From Pseudomonadota bacterium (lineage in GTDB: Bacteria; Pseudomonadota; Gammaproteobacteria; Burkholderiales; Ferrovaceae): DNA of 34,974 nucleotides. The notes below the pieces were generated by a model, which saw only the letters and a list, made by a program, of their open reading frames with translations, did not search any database and was not told where the DNA came from. Positions 1,787-31,407 of the stretch are shown here, one piece after another (position 1 is the stretch's first letter; the number at the start of each line of letters is the position of its first letter). The stretch covers positions 1 through 34,974 of the forward strand of contig JAKBAT010000003.1 of NCBI GenBank assembly GCA_021808815.1, given 5' to 3'. Both the position numbers and the translations under genes were made by a program.

Positions 1787-2308
1787 TTATTTGCCCTGCG
1801 AATATTGCACGGCCGTGAAAATACCGCGCAGGATCTCCAGCGGGGCGGGAGGGCAGCCAGGCACCTGCACGTCCACGGGGATGACGCGCGAGACGGGGCC
1901 GCAGCTTGCGTAGCTCTCCCCGAATATGCCGCCGGTACAGGCACACTCTCCCAGTGCCACCACGCGTCGCGGCGCCGGCATGGCGTCATAGGTGAGCTGC
2001 AGGGCGGTTTCCATGTTGCGCGAGACGGGTCCCGTGACGAGCAGCAGGTCGGCATGGCGGGGGCTCGCGACAAACTGGAACCCCCATTTCTCCAGGTTGT
2101 AGTAGGGGTTGTGGGTGGCATGGATTTCCAGTTCGCAACCATTGCAGGAACCCGCATCCACCGCGCGGATGGCCAGGGACCGCCCCAGGATGTGCAACAG
2201 CTCCTGCCGGATGGCACGGACTTCCGGTTGCATCCAGGTCGCTTCCGGGGCCGGGGCCGGTTCCGTGAGGATCCCCGTGCGGATCACCTTGTTGAAAATG
2301 CGCCACAT
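1787..2308 (-). CDS. HyfI/NuoB-like 20 kDa Fe-S subunit of a group 4 hydrogenase-related complex
   Basis: Motifs DAGSCNGCELEI, ALGECACTGG and VPGCPPAP retain the four Cys expected for the proximal [4Fe-4S] cluster. Confidence 0.9.
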   Translation of the reverse strand: MWRIFNKVIRTGILTEPAPAPEATWMQPEVRAIRQELLHILGRSLAIRAVDAGSCNGCELEIHATHNPYYNLEKWGFQFVASPRHADLLLVTGPVSRNMETALQLTYDAMPAPRRVVALGECACTGGIFGESYASCGPVSRVIPVDVQVPGCPPAPLEILRGIFTAVQYSQGK

Positions 2309-3801
2309 CAGAGGTCGTGCCCCGAATAACTCAGGTTGAAGGATTTGTTGATCAGGGGGAAGTCGGGCACGATGTTGCCCATGACCGCGTGTTCCAGCAC
2401 TGGCCAGTTATGCCAGGAAGGGTCATGGCAATGGCAGTCGCGGAGAACGGCCTGCCCTTCCTGCGGAGCAAGCGCCAGGGCCACGAACACTTCCCCGCGC
2501 CACCCTTCCACCGATCCGGCTCCCAGCGCAGGCTGCTCGGGCATCGGGACCGGTACCCGATGGGGGCCGGAGGGCAGGGTATCGAGCAGTGTCCGCGTCA
2601 GGCGCAGCGACTCGAATATCTCATCGAAGCGTACGGCCACGCGGGCCGCCACGTCCCCGTTGCGGTGCGTGGCGATCCGCACGGTCAGGCGATCGTAGGG
2701 GGGGCAGGCGACGTCGCAACGCAGGTCATTTGCCATGCCGCTGGCGCGTCCCGCGAGGCCCGTCAGCCCCAGACGGGCAGCCAGCGGAGGCGGAACCCGG
2801 CCGGTTCCGATGAAGCGGTCTTGCAATCCTGCATGGCCCTCGTAGATCTCCTGCAGCTCGGCCACTTCCCCGGAGAGCATGGTGCACTGGGCCAGCAAGG
2901 CATCCTGGCCCTCCATCGCGAGGTCATGCGCGACGCCGCCGGGAACAACGCCGTCCATCAGGAGGCGGTGTTCGAACAGTTGCTGCGACAGTCGCAGCAG
3001 GTTCTCCCGCAGGCGCGAGAATTGTGCGAGGCCAAAGGCAAAGCCGGCATCGTTGCCCAGCGCCCCCAGGTCACCGAGGTGGTTGGCAATGCGTTCCCGT
3101 TCCAGCAGTAGGGCCCGCAACCACTGGGCCCGCTGCGGTACCGTGCAGCTTGCGGCAGATTCCAGGGCCATGCAGTAGGCCCATGCATAAGCCACGGTGG
3201 AATCCCCCGACACCCGTCCAGCCAGGCGGTGGGCCTCGAGCGGGGGCAGTTCCCGGAAGCGCCGGGCAATGCCCTTGTGGGTATAGCCCAGCCGGGTTTC
3301 CAGGCGCAGGATTTTTTCCCCCACCACGGAAAAACGGAAATGTCCGGGCTCGATGATACCGGCATGCACGGGTCCCACCGGAATTTCATGGACGCCATCG
3401 CCGGTGACCCGCACGAAGGGGTATTCCCCGGCAGGGGAATGCCCTGCCCAGGTGCCATGGTCAATCCAGGGACGGCTATCGGTGGCGCCGGTGATGCCAA
3501 TGTCCTGCAGGTCGGTCATGGCCCGTTGCATGCGGGCTGCCGCCGGGAAAACAGGGGACAGGTCAGGGCAGCAGCGTGCGGCGGGATCCAATGGCAGGGT
3601 GAGCCAGAGTAACCCTTCCGGCAGGCGGTAGGCGCCATGGACGGCTTCGGGGCTGCCCCACAGGGAGACGAGGCGGCCTCCCCGTTCGCGCACGGCCCGG
3701 GCGGCGGTTTGCCAGCTTGGGGCATCGACCTGGCCATGCCACTGGGGCAGGGGTGCCGGCAGGCGATTGCAGCGCAGGTCCAGTCCGGGGAGCAGGTCCA
3801 T
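2308..3801 (-). CDS. HyfG-like large subunit (NuoC/D homologue) lacking [NiFe] cysteine ligands
   Basis: GPVHAGIIEPGHFRF and LGYTHKGIARRF motifs typical of the family; RVCGIC position reads RVSGDS; DPCxxC position reads DPSWHNW. Confidence 0.88.
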   Translation of the reverse strand: MDLLPGLDLRCNRLPAPLPQWHGQVDAPSWQTAARAVRERGGRLVSLWGSPEAVHGAYRLPEGLLWLTLPLDPAARCCPDLSPVFPAAARMQRAMTDLQDIGITGATDSRPWIDHGTWAGHSPAGEYPFVRVTGDGVHEIPVGPVHAGIIEPGHFRFSVVGEKILRLETRLGYTHKGIARRFRELPPLEAHRLAGRVSGDSTVAYAWAYCMALESAASCTVPQRAQWLRALLLERERIANHLGDLGALGNDAGFAFGLAQFSRLRENLLRLSQQLFEHRLLMDGVVPGGVAHDLAMEGQDALLAQCTMLSGEVAELQEIYEGHAGLQDRFIGTGRVPPPLAARLGLTGLAGRASGMANDLRCDVACPPYDRLTVRIATHRNGDVAARVAVRFDEIFESLRLTRTLLDTLPSGPHRVPVPMPEQPALGAGSVEGWRGEVFVALALAPQEGQAVLRDCHCHDPSWHNWPVLEHAVMGNIVPDFPLINKSFNLSYSGHDL

Positions 3802-3802
3802 G

Positions 3803-5257
3803 TCAGTTGCCCAGAAGTCGTGCCGCCTGGGCGTACCAGGTGCTCAGGTATGGCGGGATGTACAGGCCCAGCAACAATCCCAGCCCCAGATGGACGAATA
3901 CCGGGACCAGCGCGGGCGGGTGAGGCAGGGTTTTCACGGAGGTTTCCCCAAAGACCATGGGTTGCACCCGGGCGAAAACGGCCGCGAAGGCAATACCCAA
4001 TGCCAGCAGCAGGAACGGGGTGGCCCAGGCCTGTTCGCGCATGGCGGTGGTGAGGATCAGGAATTCGCTGGCAAATACGCCAAAAGGCGGCAACCCGAGA
4101 ATGGCAAGCGCTCCCAGCAACATGCCCCAGCCGACCGTGGGGTTCACGGTGATCAGTCCGCGAATGCCTTCCATGAGCTGGGTGCCTGCCTTCTGGGTGG
4201 CATGTCCTACCGTGAAGAAGATGGCGGATTTGATGAGGGAATGCACGGTCATGTGCAGCAGCCCGGCAAAGTTTGCCACCGGCCCTCCCATGCCGAAGGC
4301 GAAGGTGATGAGGCCCATGTGCTCGATGGAGGAATAGGCGAACAAGCGTTTCACGTCCTTCTGGCGCCACAGGAACAAGGCGGCCATGACCACGGACAGC
4401 AAGCCGAAACCCATCATCAGCTGGCTGGCCAGGTGGTTGTGCAGGGCGCCGTCGGCCAGCACCTTGCAGCGCAGGATGGCGTACAGCGCGACGTTCAGCA
4501 ACAGGCCAGAGAGCACCGCGGACACGGGGGTGGGACCCTCCGCGTGGGCATCCGGCAGCCAGTTGTGCAAGGGGGCAAGCCCCACCTTGGTGCCATACCC
4601 GATGAACAGGAATGCGAACGCGAGTCCCATGATGTGCGGGTCAAGGGTCCCCTTGATGGTTTCGAGGTGGGTCCACAGCAAGGCATCGCTGCCGCTGCCC
4701 ACGAGTTTGCCGGCAGCCATGTACAGCAGCACGGTTCCGAACAGGGCCTGCGCAATGCCCACGCCACAGAGGATGAAATATTTCCAGGCGGCTTCAAGGC
4801 TGGCGGCGCTGCGATAGACGCTCACCAGCAGCACCGTGGTGAGGGTGGCGGCTTCCATGGCCACCCACAGGATGCCGAGGTTGTTGGTCATGAGGGCCAG
4901 CAGCATGGTGAAGCTGAACAGCTGGTACATGCTGTGGTACAGGCGCAGGCGCGCCGGCGTCATTTTGCCCTGGGCTATTTCCACTCGCATGTAGGGGGAG
5001 GAAAAAATGGAGGTGGTCCAGCCCACGAAGGCGGTAAGGGTCACCATGAACACGTTGAGCGGGTCAATGAAGAATTCCTGGTCCCATACCCAGACCGGCC
5101 CGCGTGCAATGACCTCCATGGTGAGTGCGCCGGCGGCCACGAGCGTGCCCAGGCTGAAGATCATGTTGAGGGTGCGGGCGAAGGGGCGGTGTCCGAAGAA
5201 GGCCAGCGCCATGCTCCCCAGCAATGGAAATCCCAGCACGAGGAATAACGGGCTCAC
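3803..5257 (-). CDS. HyfF-like proton-channel membrane subunit (NuoL/M/N family)
   Basis: 484 aa polytopic protein with GTKVGLAPLHNWLPDAHAEGPTPVSAVLSGLLLNVALYAILR and FAYSSIEHMG motifs. Confidence 0.88.
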   Translation of the reverse strand: MSPLFLVLGFPLLGSMALAFFGHRPFARTLNMIFSLGTLVAAGALTMEVIARGPVWVWDQEFFIDPLNVFMVTLTAFVGWTTSIFSSPYMRVEIAQGKMTPARLRLYHSMYQLFSFTMLLALMTNNLGILWVAMEAATLTTVLLVSVYRSAASLEAAWKYFILCGVGIAQALFGTVLLYMAAGKLVGSGSDALLWTHLETIKGTLDPHIMGLAFAFLFIGYGTKVGLAPLHNWLPDAHAEGPTPVSAVLSGLLLNVALYAILRCKVLADGALHNHLASQLMMGFGLLSVVMAALFLWRQKDVKRLFAYSSIEHMGLITFAFGMGGPVANFAGLLHMTVHSLIKSAIFFTVGHATQKAGTQLMEGIRGLITVNPTVGWGMLLGALAILGLPPFGVFASEFLILTTAMREQAWATPFLLLALGIAFAAVFARVQPMVFGETSVKTLPHPPALVPVFVHLGLGLLLGLYIPPYLSTWYAQAARLLGN

Positions 5258-5258
5258 G

Positions 5259-5918
5259 CTAATCTTCCTTCAGCTTTTCCAGATGGCGAATGTCCATGCT
5301 GTCGAACTGTTCGCGGATGTGGAACAGGAAGACCCCGAGGATCAGGATCCCCACCAGCACGTCCAGGGCAATGCCCAGTTCCACGACCATGGGCATGCCG
5401 TAGGTGGCTGCAGTGGCGGCAAAGAACAGTCCGTTTTCCATGGCCAGGAACCCGATGACCTGAGGGACGGCCTTGGAGCGGGTGATCATCATCATGAAGG
5501 ACAGCAGCACGGAGGCCAGTGCAATGCCCAGAGTGCCGCGGGTGATGGTGAGCGACATCTGGGCAATGGGCTGCGCCAGGTAAAAGGAAAAAATCACCAG
5601 CACGATGCCGGCAAGCAGGGTGGTGGGAATGTTGATGAGGGTTTCCACATCCCAGCGCACGTTGAGCCGGTCGATGACCCGGTGCAGCAGCAGCGGGATC
5701 AGGATGACCTTGAGCAGCAGGGTTAGCGCCGCGGAGAAATATAAGTGCGGCTGGTGGGTGGCTACGCCCACGATGGCGGTGGACAGGGCCAGGGTCGCAC
5801 CCTGCAGGGTGAACAGGTGGATCAGGGACAGTACCCGGCGCTGGGACAGCATGGCGAAGGCCAGCATCAGCAGGATCGCGGCCAGCAGGTTGATAGACTG
5901 GGTGAGTACGGTACTCAT
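5259..5918 (-). CDS. HyfE-like membrane subunit
   Basis: 219 aa hydrophobic protein (LAFAMLSQRRVLSLIHLFTLQGATLALSTAIVG...), position between hyfF- and hyfC-like genes. Confidence 0.85.
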   Translation of the reverse strand: MSTVLTQSINLLAAILLMLAFAMLSQRRVLSLIHLFTLQGATLALSTAIVGVATHQPHLYFSAALTLLLKVILIPLLLHRVIDRLNVRWDVETLINIPTTLLAGIVLVIFSFYLAQPIAQMSLTITRGTLGIALASVLLSFMMMITRSKAVPQVIGFLAMENGLFFAATAATYGMPMVVELGIALDVLVGILILGVFLFHIREQFDSMDIRHLEKLKED

Positions 5919-5919
5919 C

Positions 5920-6864
5920 TCAGGCGCCCAGCAGTATGTTGATCAGCATGCCCATGACCGCCAGCAGGAAGGCCGAGGCGAGGAATTCCGGCACGCGGAA
6001 TATGCGCATTTTCGCGCTGACGCTTTCCAGCAGTGCGAGCAGGGCGCCGCTCACGGCAAGCTTGCCCATCAATACCGGAAGCGCCAGCAGGAGGACTTCC
6101 GGACTGCGGGCATCGGCGACGCCCCAAGGAAAGAAGAGGGCGAGGCCGGCACAGGCATAGGCAAACAGCTTGAGGCTTGCGGCCCATTCCAGCAGGGCCA
6201 GGTGGCGGCCCGAATATTCCAGCAGGAGGGCTTCGTGCACCATGGTGAGCTCGAGGTGCGTGGCGGGATTGTCCACGGGAATGCGAGCGTTTTCCGCGAG
6301 GGAGACCAGGATGAAGGCGACCCCTGCCAGTGCCAGACTGGGATGGATGGCAAATTGGCGGTGGGCGAACTGGTCCACGATGGTGGTGAGGGACGTGGAT
6401 TGCGAGAGCAGGGAAGCGCAGAACAGCACCATCAGCAAAGCTGGTTCGGCCAGAAACCCGATCAACATGTCGCGGCGCGCGCCCAGGGTGCCAAAGGCCG
6501 TGCCCACATCCATGGCGGCCAGGGAGAGGAATACCCTTGCCAGGGCAAACAACCCCACCAGCGCAATGGCATCGGCCGCAGGCGAAAGCGGCAGGTCTGT
6601 GGACAGGGAAGGGATGATGGCGCAGGCCAGCGCCATGGCACCAAATACCAGGTAGGGTGCCATGCGATAGAAAGGCGAGGCATGTTCTGCCAGCACCGGT
6701 TCCTTGTGAAACAGCTTGTGCAGTTTGCGGTAGGGTTGCAGCAGGCTGGGTGCCGATTTGTTTTGCAGCCAGGCGCGCCACTGGTTGACCCAGCCGGTCA
6801 GCAGCGGGGCGAGCCACAGGGCCAGCAGGACTTCCAGCAACTGGGACAGCAGGCCGGTATTCAT
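5920..6864 (-). CDS. HyfC/NuoH-like membrane subunit
   Basis: MNTGLLSQLLEVLLALWLAPLLTGWVNQWRAWLQNKSAPSLLQPYRKLHKLFHKEPV..., NuoH-type sequence. Start revised to 6864 inside the longer ORF 5920..7170, giving a 4-bp overlap with the upstream gene. Confidence 0.87.
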   Translation of the reverse strand: MNTGLLSQLLEVLLALWLAPLLTGWVNQWRAWLQNKSAPSLLQPYRKLHKLFHKEPVLAEHASPFYRMAPYLVFGAMALACAIIPSLSTDLPLSPAADAIALVGLFALARVFLSLAAMDVGTAFGTLGARRDMLIGFLAEPALLMVLFCASLLSQSTSLTTIVDQFAHRQFAIHPSLALAGVAFILVSLAENARIPVDNPATHLELTMVHEALLLEYSGRHLALLEWAASLKLFAYACAGLALFFPWGVADARSPEVLLLALPVLMGKLAVSGALLALLESVSAKMRIFRVPEFLASAFLLAVMGMLINILLGA

Positions 6865-8849
6865 TGGCGTACCACCAGGAGCACGGCGATCAAGGTCAGG
6901 AAACTGTAGAGCAGATAAATGGCGATGCGTCCCTGTTGCAGCTGGCCGGCCAGGCGGGCCAGGCGTTCCACGGTCCGGGCAATGGGCAGGTAGAGCCAAT
7001 GCCACAGGGGGTCGCTCACGCTGACGCGGTAGTGGGGCGTGGCGTCGAAGGCATCGGGCAGGTCCCGTTCCATGCGGAAAAAAGGTTCGAAAATCTGGCG
7101 GATCGGCTGACCGAACCCTTCTGCCGTATCCTGCATGCGGGCATTGCGCCAGGGATAGCCACAGTTCCATGGGGGCACGCGCTGCAATCGTCCGTGATAG
7201 CGCCAGCGTACCAGGAGGAAGGTGGTGGCAACACAGCCGCTGACGCCCAGCAAAAACAGCACGGGGCCGTAACTGGCACGGGCCGGGTCAATGGGGGCCA
7301 GCAACCAGGGGCCTGCCTGGGTGGCGAGGCTCGCACCCACCAGCGGACGCGTGACGGCGTCGAGTAAGGCCAGAACCTGCACCGGAAACAGGCCCAGCAC
7401 GAGGCAGCCGGCGGCCAGCCACAGCATGCCGATGCGTTCCCAATATCCGGCATCATGAGCCTGGGAGAGTTTTTCCTCGCGCGGTTGACCCAGGAAAATC
7501 ACGCCGAAGAACTTGACCATGGTATAGCCTGCCAGCGCAGTCACCAGGGCAATCAGGGCGGCCACAACGGGTACCAGCATGTTGAGGAAAGCGTTGGGCA
7601 GGCCCGGGGTAAACAGGAAGCTCTGCAGCAGCAGCCACTCGGAAACGAAGCCGCCCAGGGGGGGCAACCCTGCACTGGTGAGGGCACCAAGGAGCGTGAT
7701 CCAGGCGACCCAGGGCATGTAGCGGATCAGTCCTCCCAGTTTTCCCAGGCTGCGTTCGCGGGTGGCATGCAGGACGGCGCCGGTGGCCACGAACAACAGG
7801 CTTTTGAAACAGGCGTGGCTCGCCACGTGATACAGCACGGCCGTCAAGGCCAGTGCGGCCATGGGGCGCATGTCATAGGCGGCAAACAACACGGCAAGGC
7901 CGGTGCCGGCAAACACCAGTCCCAGATTCTCGATCGAGGAATAGGCGAGCAGGCGTTTCATGTCCACCTGTACGGCGGCAAACACGACGCCCGCGAGGGC
8001 GCTTGCCAGCCCCAGCGCCAGGAGCAGCAGTCCCCACCACCACAGCGGGGTATGCAGGAAATCGAAAGTCACGCGCAGGAGGCCGTAGACGGCAGTCTTC
8101 AGCATGATGCCGCTCATGAGCGCCGAAGCGGGGGAGGGGGCGGCCGGGTGTGCTTCGGGGAGCCAGACATGCAAAGGCAGCAGCCCACCCTTGGCGCCGA
8201 AGCCGGCTGTGGCCAGCAAGAAGGCCAGGGAGGCAGCGAACGGGCTCAGGTGCTGGGCGCGCAGGTTGGCAAAGGTGTAATCCCCGGTATTGGCCTGCAG
8301 TACGCCAAAGCAAAGCAGGATGGCCATGGCCCCTACGTGGGCCATCAGGAGGTAGAGGTAGCCGGCGCGGCGGATTTCTCCCAGGCGGTGGTTGGCAATC
8401 ACCAGGAAGAATGAGGACAGTGCCATGGTTTCCCACATGACCATGAACCCATAAGCGTCATCGGCCAGCAGCACCAGTGCCATGCTGGCCAGGAACACGT
8501 GGTACTCCAGGCATAGCAGCCCGGGCGGGGTCCCCTCCCCGCTGCGAAAGTAGCCTGCCGCAAAAAAGGAGACGCCGGCACTGACCGCTCCCAGGATGAG
8601 CAGGAAAAATGCAGCCAGGCTGTCCAATCGGAAGTGGAATGGCAGTGTTGGCAGACCAATGGGCAGGATCACCGAAGCGGGTGGAAAGGTGAGTGACCAT
8701 GCCGCGGCAGCCGCCAGAAGGAGTCCTGCCAGCCCGCCGGCTGGAAACATGAGACGGGCCACCAGCCGCAGGCGGTGCAATACAAGGACCCCGAAGATTC
8801 CGATGAGGAGCCACGCGGCGACGACCAACAAAATGCAGTCCAGTGGCAT
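6861..8849 (-). CDS. HyfB-like proton-channel membrane subunit (NuoL/M/N family)
   Basis: 662 aa polytopic protein with KGGLLPLHVWLPEAHPAAPSPASALMSGIMLKTAVYGLLR and AYSSIENLG motifs; first gene of the minus-strand operon. Confidence 0.88.
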   Translation of the reverse strand: MPLDCILLVVAAWLLIGIFGVLVLHRLRLVARLMFPAGGLAGLLLAAAAAWSLTFPPASVILPIGLPTLPFHFRLDSLAAFFLLILGAVSAGVSFFAAGYFRSGEGTPPGLLCLEYHVFLASMALVLLADDAYGFMVMWETMALSSFFLVIANHRLGEIRRAGYLYLLMAHVGAMAILLCFGVLQANTGDYTFANLRAQHLSPFAASLAFLLATAGFGAKGGLLPLHVWLPEAHPAAPSPASALMSGIMLKTAVYGLLRVTFDFLHTPLWWWGLLLLALGLASALAGVVFAAVQVDMKRLLAYSSIENLGLVFAGTGLAVLFAAYDMRPMAALALTAVLYHVASHACFKSLLFVATGAVLHATRERSLGKLGGLIRYMPWVAWITLLGALTSAGLPPLGGFVSEWLLLQSFLFTPGLPNAFLNMLVPVVAALIALVTALAGYTMVKFFGVIFLGQPREEKLSQAHDAGYWERIGMLWLAAGCLVLGLFPVQVLALLDAVTRPLVGASLATQAGPWLLAPIDPARASYGPVLFLLGVSGCVATTFLLVRWRYHGRLQRVPPWNCGYPWRNARMQDTAEGFGQPIRQIFEPFFRMERDLPDAFDATPHYRVSVSDPLWHWLYLPIARTVERLARLAGQLQQGRIAIYLLYSFLTLIAVLLVVRQ

Positions 8850-17078: not shown

Positions 17079-17146
17079 AATTTCTCCTTATAGTGCCGCG
17101 TGCACTCCTCTTCGTCGGGTGCGTTCACTTCAAGGAGAAGCGATTC

Positions 17147-17455
17147 ATGAGCACGCTTGGCAAGTCCATGTCGGACATCAATCTGGGCATGTTGTACCTG
17201 GCTCGCGAAGTACTGCAGCAAGACTATCATCTGGGCATGGCCAACCTGGGGATCAGCCCTGAGGTGGCGCAAACCCTGCTCTCCCTCTCCGCCGAGGAAA
17301 TCAATCGTCTGGCCCGAACGCCGTTGCTGCTGGTGGGGTTGCGCTGGCGCGGCGCCGGTGTCTGGAATTGCCTGCGCCAATATGCCATGGGGACGGCGGC
17401 AGCATTGCCCCGTGCCCTGTTGCTGGGGGAGGGTGAACTCGATCATGTCCACTAA
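17147..17455 (+). CDS. FlhD-like transcriptional regulator subunit
   Basis: MSTLGKSMSDINLGMLYLAREVLQQDYHLGMANLGISPEVAQTLLSLSAEEINRLARTPLLLVGLR; AAGGAG RBS upstream; flhC-like gene immediately follows. Confidence 0.8.
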   Translation: MSTLGKSMSDINLGMLYLAREVLQQDYHLGMANLGISPEVAQTLLSLSAEEINRLARTPLLLVGLRWRGAGVWNCLRQYAMGTAAALPRALLLGEGELDHVH

Positions 17456-18002
17456 ACGGGACCTGCAAACCGAAATCCTTCAGTATCGTAATGCGGAGCG
17501 CCTGTTTCGCCTGGGCGCGCGCGTCCCCATCGTGATGGAGATGACCCGCCTCTCGAGCTGGTTTCTGCGCAAGCTGTCACTCGAAATACGTGGGGAAGCC
17601 CCCCGCAAGGGACAGATTCCCAACTCGGACCAGTGGTATCTGCGGCGTCAGAACCATTTGCAGGCTTCCCTGTTTTGTGCCATTTACGATCGCCTCAAAC
17701 AGCAAGCCCTCCAGGAGGAGGATCCCTGTGGTTTGCTGGTATCCGCTTATGGCGAACTGGCTGCCGTGATGGAGGCAGCGGGGTTGACCCTGCAGATGTC
17801 CATCGATCGCGCCTGGTGGCTGGTGAAATCGTTGCAGATCCGCAATTTGCAACGCTCGCGTTGCCGCGTTTGTGGGGGCCGCTACCTGCAAGTCTGGGGC
17901 AAGCTGGAACGCAACTTCCTGTGCGGCCATTGCCGGGCACAGGGATACGTGCTCACGGGCGGCCGGGCCCCCCGTCAGTTGAGGCAGGAAAAGGCGGGTT
18001 GA
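17445..18002 (+). CDS. FlhC-like transcriptional regulator subunit
   Basis: ATG at 17445 overlaps flhD-like stop. RLFRLGARVPIVMEMTRLSSWFLRKLSLEIRGEAPRKGQIPNSDQWY..., zinc-type CRVC...CGHC pair. Confidence 0.85.
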   Translation: MSTKRDLQTEILQYRNAERLFRLGARVPIVMEMTRLSSWFLRKLSLEIRGEAPRKGQIPNSDQWYLRRQNHLQASLFCAIYDRLKQQALQEEDPCGLLVSAYGELAAVMEAAGLTLQMSIDRAWWLVKSLQIRNLQRSRCRVCGGRYLQVWGKLERNFLCGHCRAQGYVLTGGRAPRQLRQEKAG

Positions 18003-18010
18003 ACGGGCCC

Positions 18011-18925
18011 GTGCAACCCCTGCTGGCATTGCAAAGCCCTTCATCGTGCCTGCTGCAGGCACGCGCTCCCCTCATGGCCTGGCGAACCCTGGCAGAACTG
18101 GATCTGGGGGAAACGGAACAGGTGTTGATGCCCACGCTCGAACGCCTGGGGGGCTGGGTGCTCAACCTGCCGGGCAGGGCGGTGACGGATGTCACGGTAT
18201 TCCGCATGGCCCTCGAGGCAGGGATCGCCGTGCTGCAGGGTGGCGCCCTGCGCTCCGATCCGCCCTTGCGCGTGGCCGTTGCACTGGAAGCCGCACTGCA
18301 GGTCGTGGCGTGGCAATTGCATCCGATGCAGGTTTCCGGGGAAGGGGCTGCGATACCCTGGGGGATGTATTCATGCAGCCTGTGGGGCTGGTCGCAAGCC
18401 CATGGTGTGGATCATGTGCACTGGGCATGTCGGCCTGGGGCACCCCCTGTTCCCCTGACCGTGGCCCTGTTGGCCGGGCGTATCCTGTCTGGGGCAACGC
18501 TGGCCTGGCTGGAACAGCACTGCGCGGAAGGAGTGCAGGCCTTATGGCAAGGTGCCGGCCACGCGGGCCCGGCGGAGGACACCGGAATGTTTGCGCTCCA
18601 GGTGCAGAAGGCAGCCCGGGCGCTGGCCCAGCGGGGGCTCTGGCACCCGCAGCGGCCGCCTGGAAAGGTATGGTGCACCGGCCGGCATTATTGCCTGCTC
18701 TGGCCTCTGGCCGGCCAGGACCTGCTAAAAGAGATGCATGGCGTAACCGCGGTACCACCGGCAGCATCCCTGCCCTGGCTGGAAACCTTGCAACGGGCGG
18801 GTTGTGTGCTGGGATCCGGTGCCGGGGCGGTTGAAATGCAGATGCATCCATTGTTGGGGCGTCCTGTCCAGTCCGTGCTTGCCGGCGGGTTGCTGGAAGA
18901 GGCACTGCACACGCTATGGCCGTGA
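18011..18925 (+). CDS. TraI_2/MobH-relaxase-N-terminus-like protein, apparently degenerate
   Basis: Position between flhDC- and traD-like genes, plus WGMYSCSLWGWSQAHGVDHVHWACRPGAPPVPLTVALLAGRILSGATLAWLEQ resembling the TraI_2 domain; no clear HD motif. GTG start at 18011 is provisional. Confidence 0.5.
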   Translation: MQPLLALQSPSSCLLQARAPLMAWRTLAELDLGETEQVLMPTLERLGGWVLNLPGRAVTDVTVFRMALEAGIAVLQGGALRSDPPLRVAVALEAALQVVAWQLHPMQVSGEGAAIPWGMYSCSLWGWSQAHGVDHVHWACRPGAPPVPLTVALLAGRILSGATLAWLEQHCAEGVQALWQGAGHAGPAEDTGMFALQVQKAARALAQRGLWHPQRPPGKVWCTGRHYCLLWPLAGQDLLKEMHGVTAVPPAASLPWLETLQRAGCVLGSGAGAVEMQMHPLLGRPVQSVLAGGLLEEALHTLWP

Positions 18926-20544
18926 GGGAACTGACATGGGTGCCCTGGGTTGTTGCCCTGGCATTGGGGGAAATGGCAGGTTACGGGAGCGGTCTCGGGG
19001 GCAGGGCGGCCAGTGCCTGTACATTGCTGTGGGCAGTTCTGATTTTTCTGAGGTATATCCCTGCCCATCTGCAGCGTTGGCAGAGGGTACGGCAGTCCCG
19101 TCTGCGGTGGGTTGGGGAGGCTGCACTGGCCCGGTGGCGGCGGCACCATCCTGGACAGCGCCTTCTGGGTTACGGGTCGGTCTGGGGGACACGGGAGGCC
19201 CAACGCCTGCATCGATGGCAGGCGGGATCAACGCCTTTTGCGGGAATGTCCCCTGCCGTGCTGGCGGGACCCTCCCGTCCATTGGGGATCGAAGCCCGGG
19301 CGGGCGGCGGGCACATGCTGGTGATGGGCGCGCCCGGCACAGGAAAAACCCAGTTGTTCAAGTTGCTGGCCCTGCAGGCCATTGATGCCGGGGATGCCGT
19401 GGTCCTGCTCGACCCCAAAGGCGGGCGGGCCCTGCGCGAGAGCCTGGCTGCAGCGGCGGCCCGCGTCGGGCGTCCCTATTATCAGTTGCTGCCTGCCGAA
19501 CCGACCTTGAGCGATCGCCTGGACCTGCTCGCCAATGGCCGTGACCCTGCCGAGTTGGCAAGCCGCCTGAGCCGATTGATTCCCGCAGGTGAAAGCGACA
19601 ATGTTTTTGGGCAGTTTGCCTGGATGACCCTGCACCGTCTCGTGGGCGCTTTGCAGGCATTGGGAGAGCCGGTGACCTTGCAGTGCCTGAATGCCCACGT
19701 GGCGGATCAGGGCCAGGCATTGTGGCATCGTTTCCAGGTCCACCCGCTGCCACTGGACGGCGCCGTGCAAACGGGGCTGTCAGCGCTGGTGCAGCACGAT
19801 CCGGCACACTACCGCAAAATGGTGTTGGCGCTGACCCCAATCCTGGAAATGCTTGCGGGTGGGGCGCTGGGTGCCCTGTTGTCTCCCTCTGAGCAGGACC
19901 GGGCGACCGCCCCCGTCCGGGTCAATCTGGCCCAGATCGTGCGGCAGGGGGGTGTCCTCTATGCGGGCCTGGGTGCCTTGACCGATGTTGCCACATCCCA
20001 GGCGCTGGGAGCGCTCCTGCTGGCAGATCTCGCTGCGGTGGCCGGAGATCGTTATCGTGACGATGCGGCGGGCCCCCTTGTGCGGCTACTGGTGGACGAG
20101 GCTGCCGAAATTACCAATCCGGCGTTCATTCAGATGCTCAACAAGGGGCGTGAGTGCGGCGTGCAAGTGACATTTGCAGTCCAGACCCTGGCGGATCTGG
20201 AAGTGGCGATGGGAAGCGAAGGCGCTGCCCGGATGATGCTGGGCAATGCCGGCCATTGGATCGCATTCCGCACCCTGGATGCCGGCTCGCGCCTGGCCTG
20301 GTCCGAACGGGCTGGCCGGGTGTGGGCAAGGCTGGCGGGAAGCTCGCAACAGGCCCAGCAGGGGCAGGGGCCTGCAGGACGCCATCGCGGGCGCAGCGCA
20401 GGCCGCAGTGAGCAATTGCGCGAAGTGCCCCTGGTGCCGGAAGTGCTGTTGTCGCAGTTGCCCGACTTGCATTTCATGGGGCTACTGGAGGGACGATGCG
20501 TGGTGGGGGCGATTCCCCTGGTTCGCCGGGGGCCGGATGATTGA
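18916..20544 (+). CDS. TraD/VirD4-like conjugative coupling ATPase (SXT/TOL-type)
   Basis: Walker A MGAPGTGKTQLFKLLALQAIDAGDAVVLLDPKGG, Walker B VRLLVDEAAEITN, MLNKGRECGVQVTFAVQTLADLEVAMGSEGAARMMLGN. Confidence 0.85.
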   Translation: MAVRELTWVPWVVALALGEMAGYGSGLGGRAASACTLLWAVLIFLRYIPAHLQRWQRVRQSRLRWVGEAALARWRRHHPGQRLLGYGSVWGTREAQRLHRWQAGSTPFAGMSPAVLAGPSRPLGIEARAGGGHMLVMGAPGTGKTQLFKLLALQAIDAGDAVVLLDPKGGRALRESLAAAAARVGRPYYQLLPAEPTLSDRLDLLANGRDPAELASRLSRLIPAGESDNVFGQFAWMTLHRLVGALQALGEPVTLQCLNAHVADQGQALWHRFQVHPLPLDGAVQTGLSALVQHDPAHYRKMVLALTPILEMLAGGALGALLSPSEQDRATAPVRVNLAQIVRQGGVLYAGLGALTDVATSQALGALLLADLAAVAGDRYRDDAAGPLVRLLVDEAAEITNPAFIQMLNKGRECGVQVTFAVQTLADLEVAMGSEGAARMMLGNAGHWIAFRTLDAGSRLAWSERAGRVWARLAGSSQQAQQGQGPAGRHRGRSAGRSEQLREVPLVPEVLLSQLPDLHFMGLLEGRCVVGAIPLVRRGPDD

Positions 20545-20920
20545 GTGGGGGCTGGTACGGGAAGCGTGGCGTGACCAGCAGGCCTGGCACGGCACCCTGG
20601 TCCTGCAGGCCTGGCAATGGGCCATTTCTGGCCGGGCACATGCCGCCTGGTGGCCGCAATGGATCTATCGTGTGGCTGTGCTGGCAGGATGGTTCGCGGC
20701 GGGTGCGCCCCCAGGGATCCTGCTGGCCTGGCACTGCTGGCGCGATGGCCGGGACCGGGACCCGCTGGCGCTGCTCGAACGACGTGGACGCGGATTGGCC
20801 TGGGCGGCGGTGGGGGCCATCGGGACCGTGGCTTACCTGTCCTGGCCGGCACCCATCCTGCCGTGGGTTGCCCCCATGTGGGCAGGGCTCCTGTTACTGG
20901 GACTGGCGTGGGTACCCTGA
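20537..20920 (+). CDS. Small membrane protein, possibly analogous to DUF4400/TraJ-type ICE proteins
   Basis: MIEWGLVREAWRDQQAWHGTLVLQAWQWAISG...; ATG overlaps the traD-like stop; two to three hydrophobic segments. Family call rests on synteny and is weak. Confidence 0.5.
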   Translation: MIEWGLVREAWRDQQAWHGTLVLQAWQWAISGRAHAAWWPQWIYRVAVLAGWFAAGAPPGILLAWHCWRDGRDRDPLALLERRGRGLAWAAVGAIGTVAYLSWPAPILPWVAPMWAGLLLLGLAWVP

Positions 20921-30153: not shown

Positions 30154-31407
30154 ATGGGGGTGTTGAAAGTCAAGGGCGTCGACCCGGCACGTCGGCAATG
30201 GTTGCAAACCCTGGGGCGCTGGGGCTTGGGGGCGACGGCATTGGGAGGCTTGCCCGGGACACTTTGGGCCGACGAAGCCCCTCCCATGGTCGAGTTACCC
30301 TTTGCCAACGGTCAGCGGCCCCTGGTGGCCTATCCACAAAAGCGGCCCCTGATACTCCTGACCAGCCGGCCCCCCCAGCTGGAAACTCCCTTTTCCGTCT
30401 TCAACGAAAGCCTGTATACGCCCAATGACGCGTTTTTCGTGCGCTACCACTGGAGCGAGGTGCCCACCCACGTGGACCTGCAGACCTATCGCCTGCAGGT
30501 GGGGGGGCACGTGAAAACCCCGCTTTCCCTGTCGCTGGAAAAACTGCAGGCCTTGGGGACAGCGGTGGAACTGCCGGCCGTACACCAGTGTTCGGGGAAC
30601 AGCCGTGGCAAGATGATGCCGCGCGTCAACGGCGGGCAGGCCTATAGCGGATTGATGGGCAATGCCCGCTGGGAGGGCCTGCCACTCAAGACACTGTTGG
30701 AGGCGGCCGGCGTCAAGGCCGGCGCCGTGCAGGTCTCGTTTGACGGGCTGGACCATCCTCCCCTGCAGCAAAGCCCGGATTTCGTCAAGGCGCTCGACAT
30801 CGACCATGCCCTGGATGGGGAAGTGATGGTGGCCTGGCGCATGAATGGCGCCGCCTTGCCGCTGCTCAACGGCTATCCATTGCGTCTCGTGGTGCCGGGG
30901 TACTACGGGACCTACTGGGTCAAGCACCTGTCCAGCATCCAGGTGCTGGAAAAACCTTTCGAGGGCTTCTGGATGGAGCATGCTTACCGCGTGCCCGAAG
31001 ATGCCTGCCATTGCCTGTCTCCCGATGACACGGCGAAGACGTCCGTGCCCATCGCCCGCTTCGACGTGCGCTCCTTCATCACGAGCCTTGCGGATGGCGA
31101 TCGCATCCAAAAGGGGCGGACCTATACCGTGCGCGGGATTGCCTTTGACGGCGGGTACGGCATCACGGAAGTGGCATTTTCCGCGGATGGGGGCCAGCGC
31201 TGGCAGGACGCCACGCTGGGCCGTGATGTGGGGCGCTATGCCTTCCGGGAATGGACGGTGCCTTTCCGGGCCGAACACAGCGGGGAATACCGCCTGCTGG
31301 TGCGAGCCGTGAACCGCATCGGGCAAACCCAGCCGCAGCAGGCGTTGTGGAACCCCGGGGGTTACATGTACAACGCCACCGAGCATGTACGTGTGGTGGC
31401 AGGATAG
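30154..31407 (+). CDS. sorA: Sulfite dehydrogenase molybdopterin subunit (SorA/SoxC-like)
   Basis: Tat-like RRQWLQTLGRWGLG; HQCSGNSRG Mo-ligand Cys region; C-terminal Mo-co dimerisation-like domain. Confidence 0.85.
   Translation: MGVLKVKGVDPARRQWLQTLGRWGLGATALGGLPGTLWADEAPPMVELPFANGQRPLVAYPQKRPLILLTSRPPQLETPFSVFNESLYTPNDAFFVRYHWSEVPTHVDLQTYRLQVGGHVKTPLSLSLEKLQALGTAVELPAVHQCSGNSRGKMMPRVNGGQAYSGLMGNARWEGLPLKTLLEAAGVKAGAVQVSFDGLDHPPLQQSPDFVKALDIDHALDGEVMVAWRMNGAALPLLNGYPLRLVVPGYYGTYWVKHLSSIQVLEKPFEGFWMEHAYRVPEDACHCLSPDDTAKTSVPIARFDVRSFITSLADGDRIQKGRTYTVRGIAFDGGYGITEVAFSADGGQRWQDATLGRDVGRYAFREWTVPFRAEHSGEYRLLVRAVNRIGQTQPQQALWNPGGYMYNATEHVRVVAG

Follow-up and report, generated by a model that had tools for sequence, protein, structure and literature searches.

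Five overlapping genes on the plus strand of a genome related to Ferrovum myxofaciens, at positions 17147 to 20920 of the 34,974-nucleotide stretch of contig JAKBAT010000003.1 analyzed here (the window), probably form a module for the regulation and substrate loading of a type IV secretion system (T4SS) that descends from a MOBH-type conjugative element and has become fixed in the chromosomes of the Ferrovum family, a reading for which we draw on three papers (PMC4886054, PMC4207684, and PMC4344509). In order, the genes are flhD2 (17147 to 17455) and flhC2 (17445 to 18002), encoding FlhD- and FlhC-family regulator subunits (together FlhDC2), with the flhC2 start overlapping the flhD2 stop; a traI-like, MobH-derived gene with a TTG start (17999 to 18925; 308 amino acids [aa]); traD, encoding an SXT-type coupling ATPase (18916 to 20544; 542 aa); and a gene for a small membrane protein (20537 to 20920; 127 aa). 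The end of each gene overlaps the start of the next by 4 to 11 bases, and all are separate genes, with no fusion. A first-pass annotation had described these five collinear, overlapping frames, and all were found on the plus strand in the order it gave, its TraI_2 assignment being weak when taken alone (Pfam E value, 0.026; 13.9 bits against a cutoff of 23.9). Because genes were predicted with a simple open reading frame caller, the starts of some are uncertain, as are a few frames in GC-rich relatives. Profile searches of the family covered 25 genomes (G000, the window genome, to G024); G, L, and lowercase g numbers denote genomes, loci, and genera, respectively, as labeled in this analysis.

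Domestication of the locus, which the annotation had proposed, is supported by a fixed site, by distances that track those of core genes, and by purifying selection. The order dcd-flhD-flhC-traI-traD beside mrp and metG was the same in seven loci from other genomes; an eighth (L003) begins inside traD, and in G006 a flhD-flhC-traI-traD run lies near dcd on the opposite strand. The small gene, which has homologues within the family, is also found 3' of traD in family relatives. As this order recurs in loci of other genomes, the site can be regarded as fixed and the gene set as neither an assembly accident nor a product of chance. Pairwise identities of FlhD and TraD correlated with those of mrp and metG at Spearman coefficients of 0.88 to 0.94, and those of FlhC, VirB4, VirB9, VirB10, and VirB11 correlated moderately (0.61 to 0.78, with FlhC and VirB4 at 0.63 to 0.74). 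Ratios of nonsynonymous to synonymous substitution rates (dN/dS) were 0.02 to 0.10 for flhD, 0.02 to 0.11 for flhC, and 0.09 to 0.20 for traD, with mrp and dcd as references at 0.01 to 0.12. An integrative and conjugative element (ICE) is marked by a variable site, an integrase, and att repeats. Here the dcd site is fixed across genera, and no integrase was recognized by eye among the gene calls of the window, in agreement with the annotation (no profile search was made, and att repeats were not searched for). A recent ICE was rejected on the basis of the fixed site at dcd and of distances that track core genes.

The rest of the T4SS was located elsewhere in the genomes, its components being assigned with profiles built in this analysis. 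In the window genome, virB11-2-3-4-5-6 adjoins alr on contig C96, with virB6 cut at the contig end, and virB9-10 lies on contig C120; in relatives, virB8 adjoins virB9-10. VirB4/TraC profiles matched 23 of the 25 family genomes (none in G003 or G011), VirB10 matched 24, and VirB9 matched all 25. Homologues of VirB2 to VirB6 and of VirB8 to VirB11 (VirB8 from relatives) place the channel in the VirB/Trb (P-type) class; its proteins match TrbB, TrbE/VirB4, TrbJ, TrbF, VirB9, and VirB10 models and, fitting Trb/VirB models, do not point to an F-type mating-pair formation (MPF_F) channel. The genes virB1 and virB7, neither of which was searched for here, are reported absent from the Ferrovum T4SS (PMC4886054). 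In genus g7 (L089, L091, and L092), virB11-2-3-4-5-6 follows flhD-flhC-traI-traD immediately and on the same strand, a link between the window module and the VirB/Trb T4SS. Joint loss also favors such a link, the 99% complete G011 having neither flhDC-traI-traD at dcd nor virB4. No complete ICE was found around the locus in g7: only half of the T4SS adjoins it, virB8-10 are located away from this run, and no integrase was recognized by eye (profiles were not searched). The earlier statement that mating-pair formation genes were missing therefore holds for the window but not for the genome, and the term remnant does not fit a locus whose VirB/Trb mating-pair genes persist at two other sites, half of them joined to flhDC-traI-traD in g7. 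Separately, the g4 loci L102, L094, and L136 carry nonorthologous VirB-type T4SS genes while flhDC stays at dcd. In G036 (98% complete), locus L087 has a flhDC-traI-traD-virB11...virB6 run, and the VirB9 and VirB10 profiles match nothing; this T4SS possibly has no recognizable outer core.

TraD in the window matched TraG-D_C above the Pfam cutoff (E value, 3e-12) and the NCBIfam SXT_TraD model just below its cutoff (E value, 2e-96; 323.9 bits against 366), and its ATPase motifs are intact, with Walker A at residue 138 and Walker B at residue 391. A nearly complete VirB/D4 set has been described in all Ferrovum genomes, with no VirD4 in F. myxofaciens (PMC4886054). TraD is present at the dcd locus of F. 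myxofaciens P3G (L007), which supplies a candidate, and a probable one, for the coupling protein that this genome study reported missing. The small membrane protein has about two predicted transmembrane stretches by hydropathy and no family match in Pfam or NCBIfam, and its equivalence to Yaa/s043 is suggested by position only. In G008 (L096 and L095), VirB2 to VirB6 and VirB8 to VirB11 are present and a search for SXT-type TraD gave one marginal match only; this T4SS is possibly without a coupling protein.

The TraI-like protein matched the NCBIfam MobH model at an E value of 1e-8, with 34.3 bits against a cutoff of 200. Its orthologues align with canonical MobH and retain invariant columns; absent from all aligned family proteins are the HHH...GGL..H and CHDxGK (HD) motifs of MobH, which are present in the comparison MobH proteins of a Simplicispira plasmid and G094. 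Judging from the missing motifs, the protein would be a dead enzyme. Longer MobH-like proteins of other families (the G044 plasmid, G080, G072, and G400) and from G032 also lack the motifs, so their loss may predate domestication. The gene orders in these families are flhC or flhDC followed by traI and traD (the G044 plasmid, G080, and G072) and flhD-traI-traD (G400). When 398 genomes of the order were searched with a profile of the TraI-like alignment, the short form was restricted to the family, the other matches being MobH-like frames of 587 to 845 aa. The predicted structure, a confident model (pLDDT, 86.5), had one strong match in the PDB, the uncharacterized Coxiella protein 3kq5, and weak matches of its C-terminal part to 5vfx, a relaxosome DNA-binding protein, and 2ipq, a DUF1528 domain.

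Both regulator subunits exceeded the Pfam cutoffs of 27 bits (FlhD: E value, 9e-14, 52 bits; FlhC: E value, 5e-29, 101.8 bits), and FlhD also had a DUF2857 match below threshold. The NCBIfam cutoffs for flagellar equivalogs were not reached by either FlhD (47.7 against 90 bits) or FlhC (100.7 against 216 bits). In a tree of 54 FlhC domains, FlhC2 of the family formed a single clade (support, 96/96) apart from flagellar FlhC (99/97) and from a group made up of a SetC-like protein of a Proteus ICE and AcaC of pRA1; several element FlhC proteins form long branches, and their exact placements are unsure. Most family genomes have flagellar genes. According to profile searches, however, FlhDC2 is kept in five genomes without FlhA (G007, G014, G019, and G023 of g4, together with G008), which argues that it is not tied to flagella; its absence from G004, G013, G016, and G018 was left uninterpreted, as those assemblies are incomplete or broken at the dcd locus. 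FlhC2 was the sole FlhC found in the window genome although FlhA is present there; since a flagellar flhC occurs in the four remaining genomes of the genus, that gene probably lies in an assembly gap. An S24-type repressor may accompany the pair in some genomes: in g7 the gene divergent from flhD encodes a protein that weakly matches S24 peptidases, and in G032 a clear helix-turn-helix/S24 repressor precedes flhDC, with no repressor recognized at the window locus. As a separate observation, L185 and L181 (G036 and G201, of another family) have a single open frame encoding two FlhC domains beside flhD, at a traI-traD locus.

The profile matches and gene order, with an FlhC-family protein in the same predicted operon as the TraI-like protein and TraD, uphold the conjugation origin and the FlhDC-type regulator of the first-pass annotation. 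On the basis of family homology, FlhD and FlhC would form an activator of their own operon, and this activator would probably turn on the T4SS genes at the two other sites as well. As the coupling ATPase, TraD would feed substrate into the VirB/Trb channel; the TraI-like protein would be its adaptor, binding DNA or another substrate, and the small membrane protein would be a TraD partner resembling Yaa/s043. Conjugation in its own right has most likely been given up, and the system would export protein or nucleoprotein. We propose tentatively, and with less assurance than the module itself, that a T4SS derived from conjugation has become a fixed core system of the whole family, in which a catalytically dead relaxase serves as substrate adaptor and an FlhDC paralogue as a dedicated, flagella-independent master switch. 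The promoters bound by FlhDC2 and the exported material (protein, nucleoprotein, or single-stranded DNA [ssDNA]) are the least supported parts of this mechanism.

Several results weigh against assigning the operon to a fixed T4SS in this way. In genera g4 and g5, FlhDC survives at dcd without traI or traD (loci of G007 and G014 in g4 and of G008 in g5); because flhDC outlasts traI and traD in two genera, its role and targets must be wider than these genes. The g4 T4SS is not orthologous, its VirB4 sharing 26% identity. A motif search found that the promoters of flhD, virB11, and virB8 share no motif beyond those in shuffled controls, so that control of the other T4SS loci by FlhDC2 is something we infer. 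The earlier suggestion of a DNA-pumping ATPase under FlhDC control is accordingly plausible as far as the operon goes but too narrow in its targets, and no binding motif was found to go with it. The traI-like gene (dN/dS, 0.2 to 0.46) and the small gene (0.13 to 0.41) evolve fast. Finally, the window genome (1.69 Mb) is 90% complete and in 147 contigs, with virB6 interrupted as described and virB8 off the contig.

Three other explanations were weighed. TraD and the T4SS might still release or transfer ssDNA in the manner of the gonococcal genetic island (GGI); the TraI-like protein would then be a DNA-binding adaptor, and another protein would do the nicking. GGI-like T4SSs have the traI-traD-small membrane protein module, several with FlhC upstream, and require TraI and TraD for ssDNA secretion (PMC4207684); the intact ATPase motifs of TraD and the weak resemblance of the C-terminal part of the model to a relaxosome DNA-binding protein also fit. 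However, the HHH and HD motifs are missing and no family genome has a MobH relaxase above the cutoff (other relaxase families were not searched), and we regard active DNA export as rather unlikely. The loss of relaxase motifs and the fast evolution of the traI-like and small genes would also be expected of a decaying, functionless conjugation remnant, as would the disappearance of traI and traD from g4 and g5 and of the whole module from G011 (99% complete), where flhDC-traI-traD is lost at dcd with fragments of the small gene left, virB4 is absent as well, and virB8-10 are retained. Yet the frames are open across the family, all five genes have dN/dS values far under 1, with those of flhD and flhC matching the low values of mrp and dcd, and other T4SS genes are kept family-wide. 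A functionless remnant is thus improbable and was rejected because of this purifying selection.

Least probable, in our judgment, is a role for FlhDC2 as an additional regulator of flagella or motility, with traI and traD merely read along. Its membership of the FlhD and FlhC families and the flagellar genes in most of the family are in keeping with such a role, but its scores fall under the flagellar equivalog cutoffs, it forms a clade apart from the flagellar FlhC proteins encoded alongside it, and it is kept in the five genomes lacking FlhA, grounds on which flagellar identity was rejected. The motility link offered by the first-pass annotation is likewise not supported, the flagellar FlhC being a separate gene in relatives.

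The fixed module of a conjugation-derived T4SS, which we prefer, has counterparts among known systems. Several GGI-like T4SSs have an FlhC homologue upstream of traI, and in those with a MOBH relaxase Yaa/s043 always follows the coupling protein (PMC4207684); the order FlhC-traI-traD-small protein is therefore not new. The Ferrovum genes share this order and an SXT-type TraD with the traI-traD-yaa (s043) modules of GGI-like and SXT systems. Those modules, however, are carried by islands, plasmids, or ICEs whose channel is F-type and whose relaxases are mostly MOBH, whereas the Ferrovum channel is dispersed and of the VirB/Trb type, and is accompanied by a short relaxase-like protein devoid of the motifs. 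SetCD of SXT/R391, AcaCD of IncA/C, and SetCD of Rts1 are likewise FlhDC-family pairs tied to conjugation genes, and the S24-type proteins beside flhDC in g7 and G032 recall SetR-SetCD. In contrast to SetCD and AcaCD, FlhC2 forms its own clade, and the Ferrovum-family pair is found off mobile elements, directly upstream of traI in one predicted operon and, in the window, without a recognized repressor. BisDC of ICEclc (PMC7423338) is comparable as an FlhC-like activator of a conjugative element, to which the DUF2857 match of the window FlhD adds a further likeness, but in the window both FlhD and FlhC are recognizable.

Members of the Ferrovum family are iron oxidizers of acid mine drainage, unlike the obligate intracellular hosts of the rvh T4SS of Rickettsiales. 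That system, for which no FlhDC regulator is named in the available text of its description (PMC2653234), is also of the VirB/D4 type, scattered in chromosomal islets and vertically inherited, features paralleled here by the three loci and the distance correlations. Scattered, vertically kept T4SSs are relatively rare in proteobacteria other than Rickettsiales (PMC3158045). Published accounts of the VirB/D4 sets concern the same organisms and a nearly complete T4SS without virB1 and virB7 (PMC4886054 and PMC4725956); they found no VirD4 in F. myxofaciens and say nothing of flhD, whereas we place both an FlhDC pair and an SXT-type TraD at dcd. As far as the papers searched show, the family-wide fixation, the dispersed VirB/Trb partner, the motif-less relaxase in a fixed form, and FlhDC without flagella are new. 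The locus is a clear example of how a conjugation machine, regulator included, becomes part of its host. As the regulator persists where flagella are gone, FlhDC genes in such genomes are no evidence of motility, and export by a T4SS in acid mine drainage communities becomes a testable question.

Upstream of flhD2, a TATAGT sequence on the plus strand (17089 to 17094), unchanged in all eight aligned family flhD leaders, is a likely -10 box. An inverted repeat on the same strand (17092 to 17129), with a consensus fold in which 5 of 10 pairs show paired changes across relatives, is a weak candidate for an operator or an RNA/leader hairpin. The five-gene run sits between dcd and a GGDEF gene, with mrp and RuBisCO genes in the wider flanks. 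On the minus strand, positions 1787 to 8849 hold a Hydrogenase-4/complex-I-like gene run that includes HyfB-like (6861 to 8849) and NuoD-like (2308 to 3801) genes, among others; the large-subunit-like protein encoded at 2308 to 3801 lacks the CxxC motif and so may not be a [NiFe] hydrogenase. A gene for a SorA-family sulfite dehydrogenase is present at 30154 to 31407.

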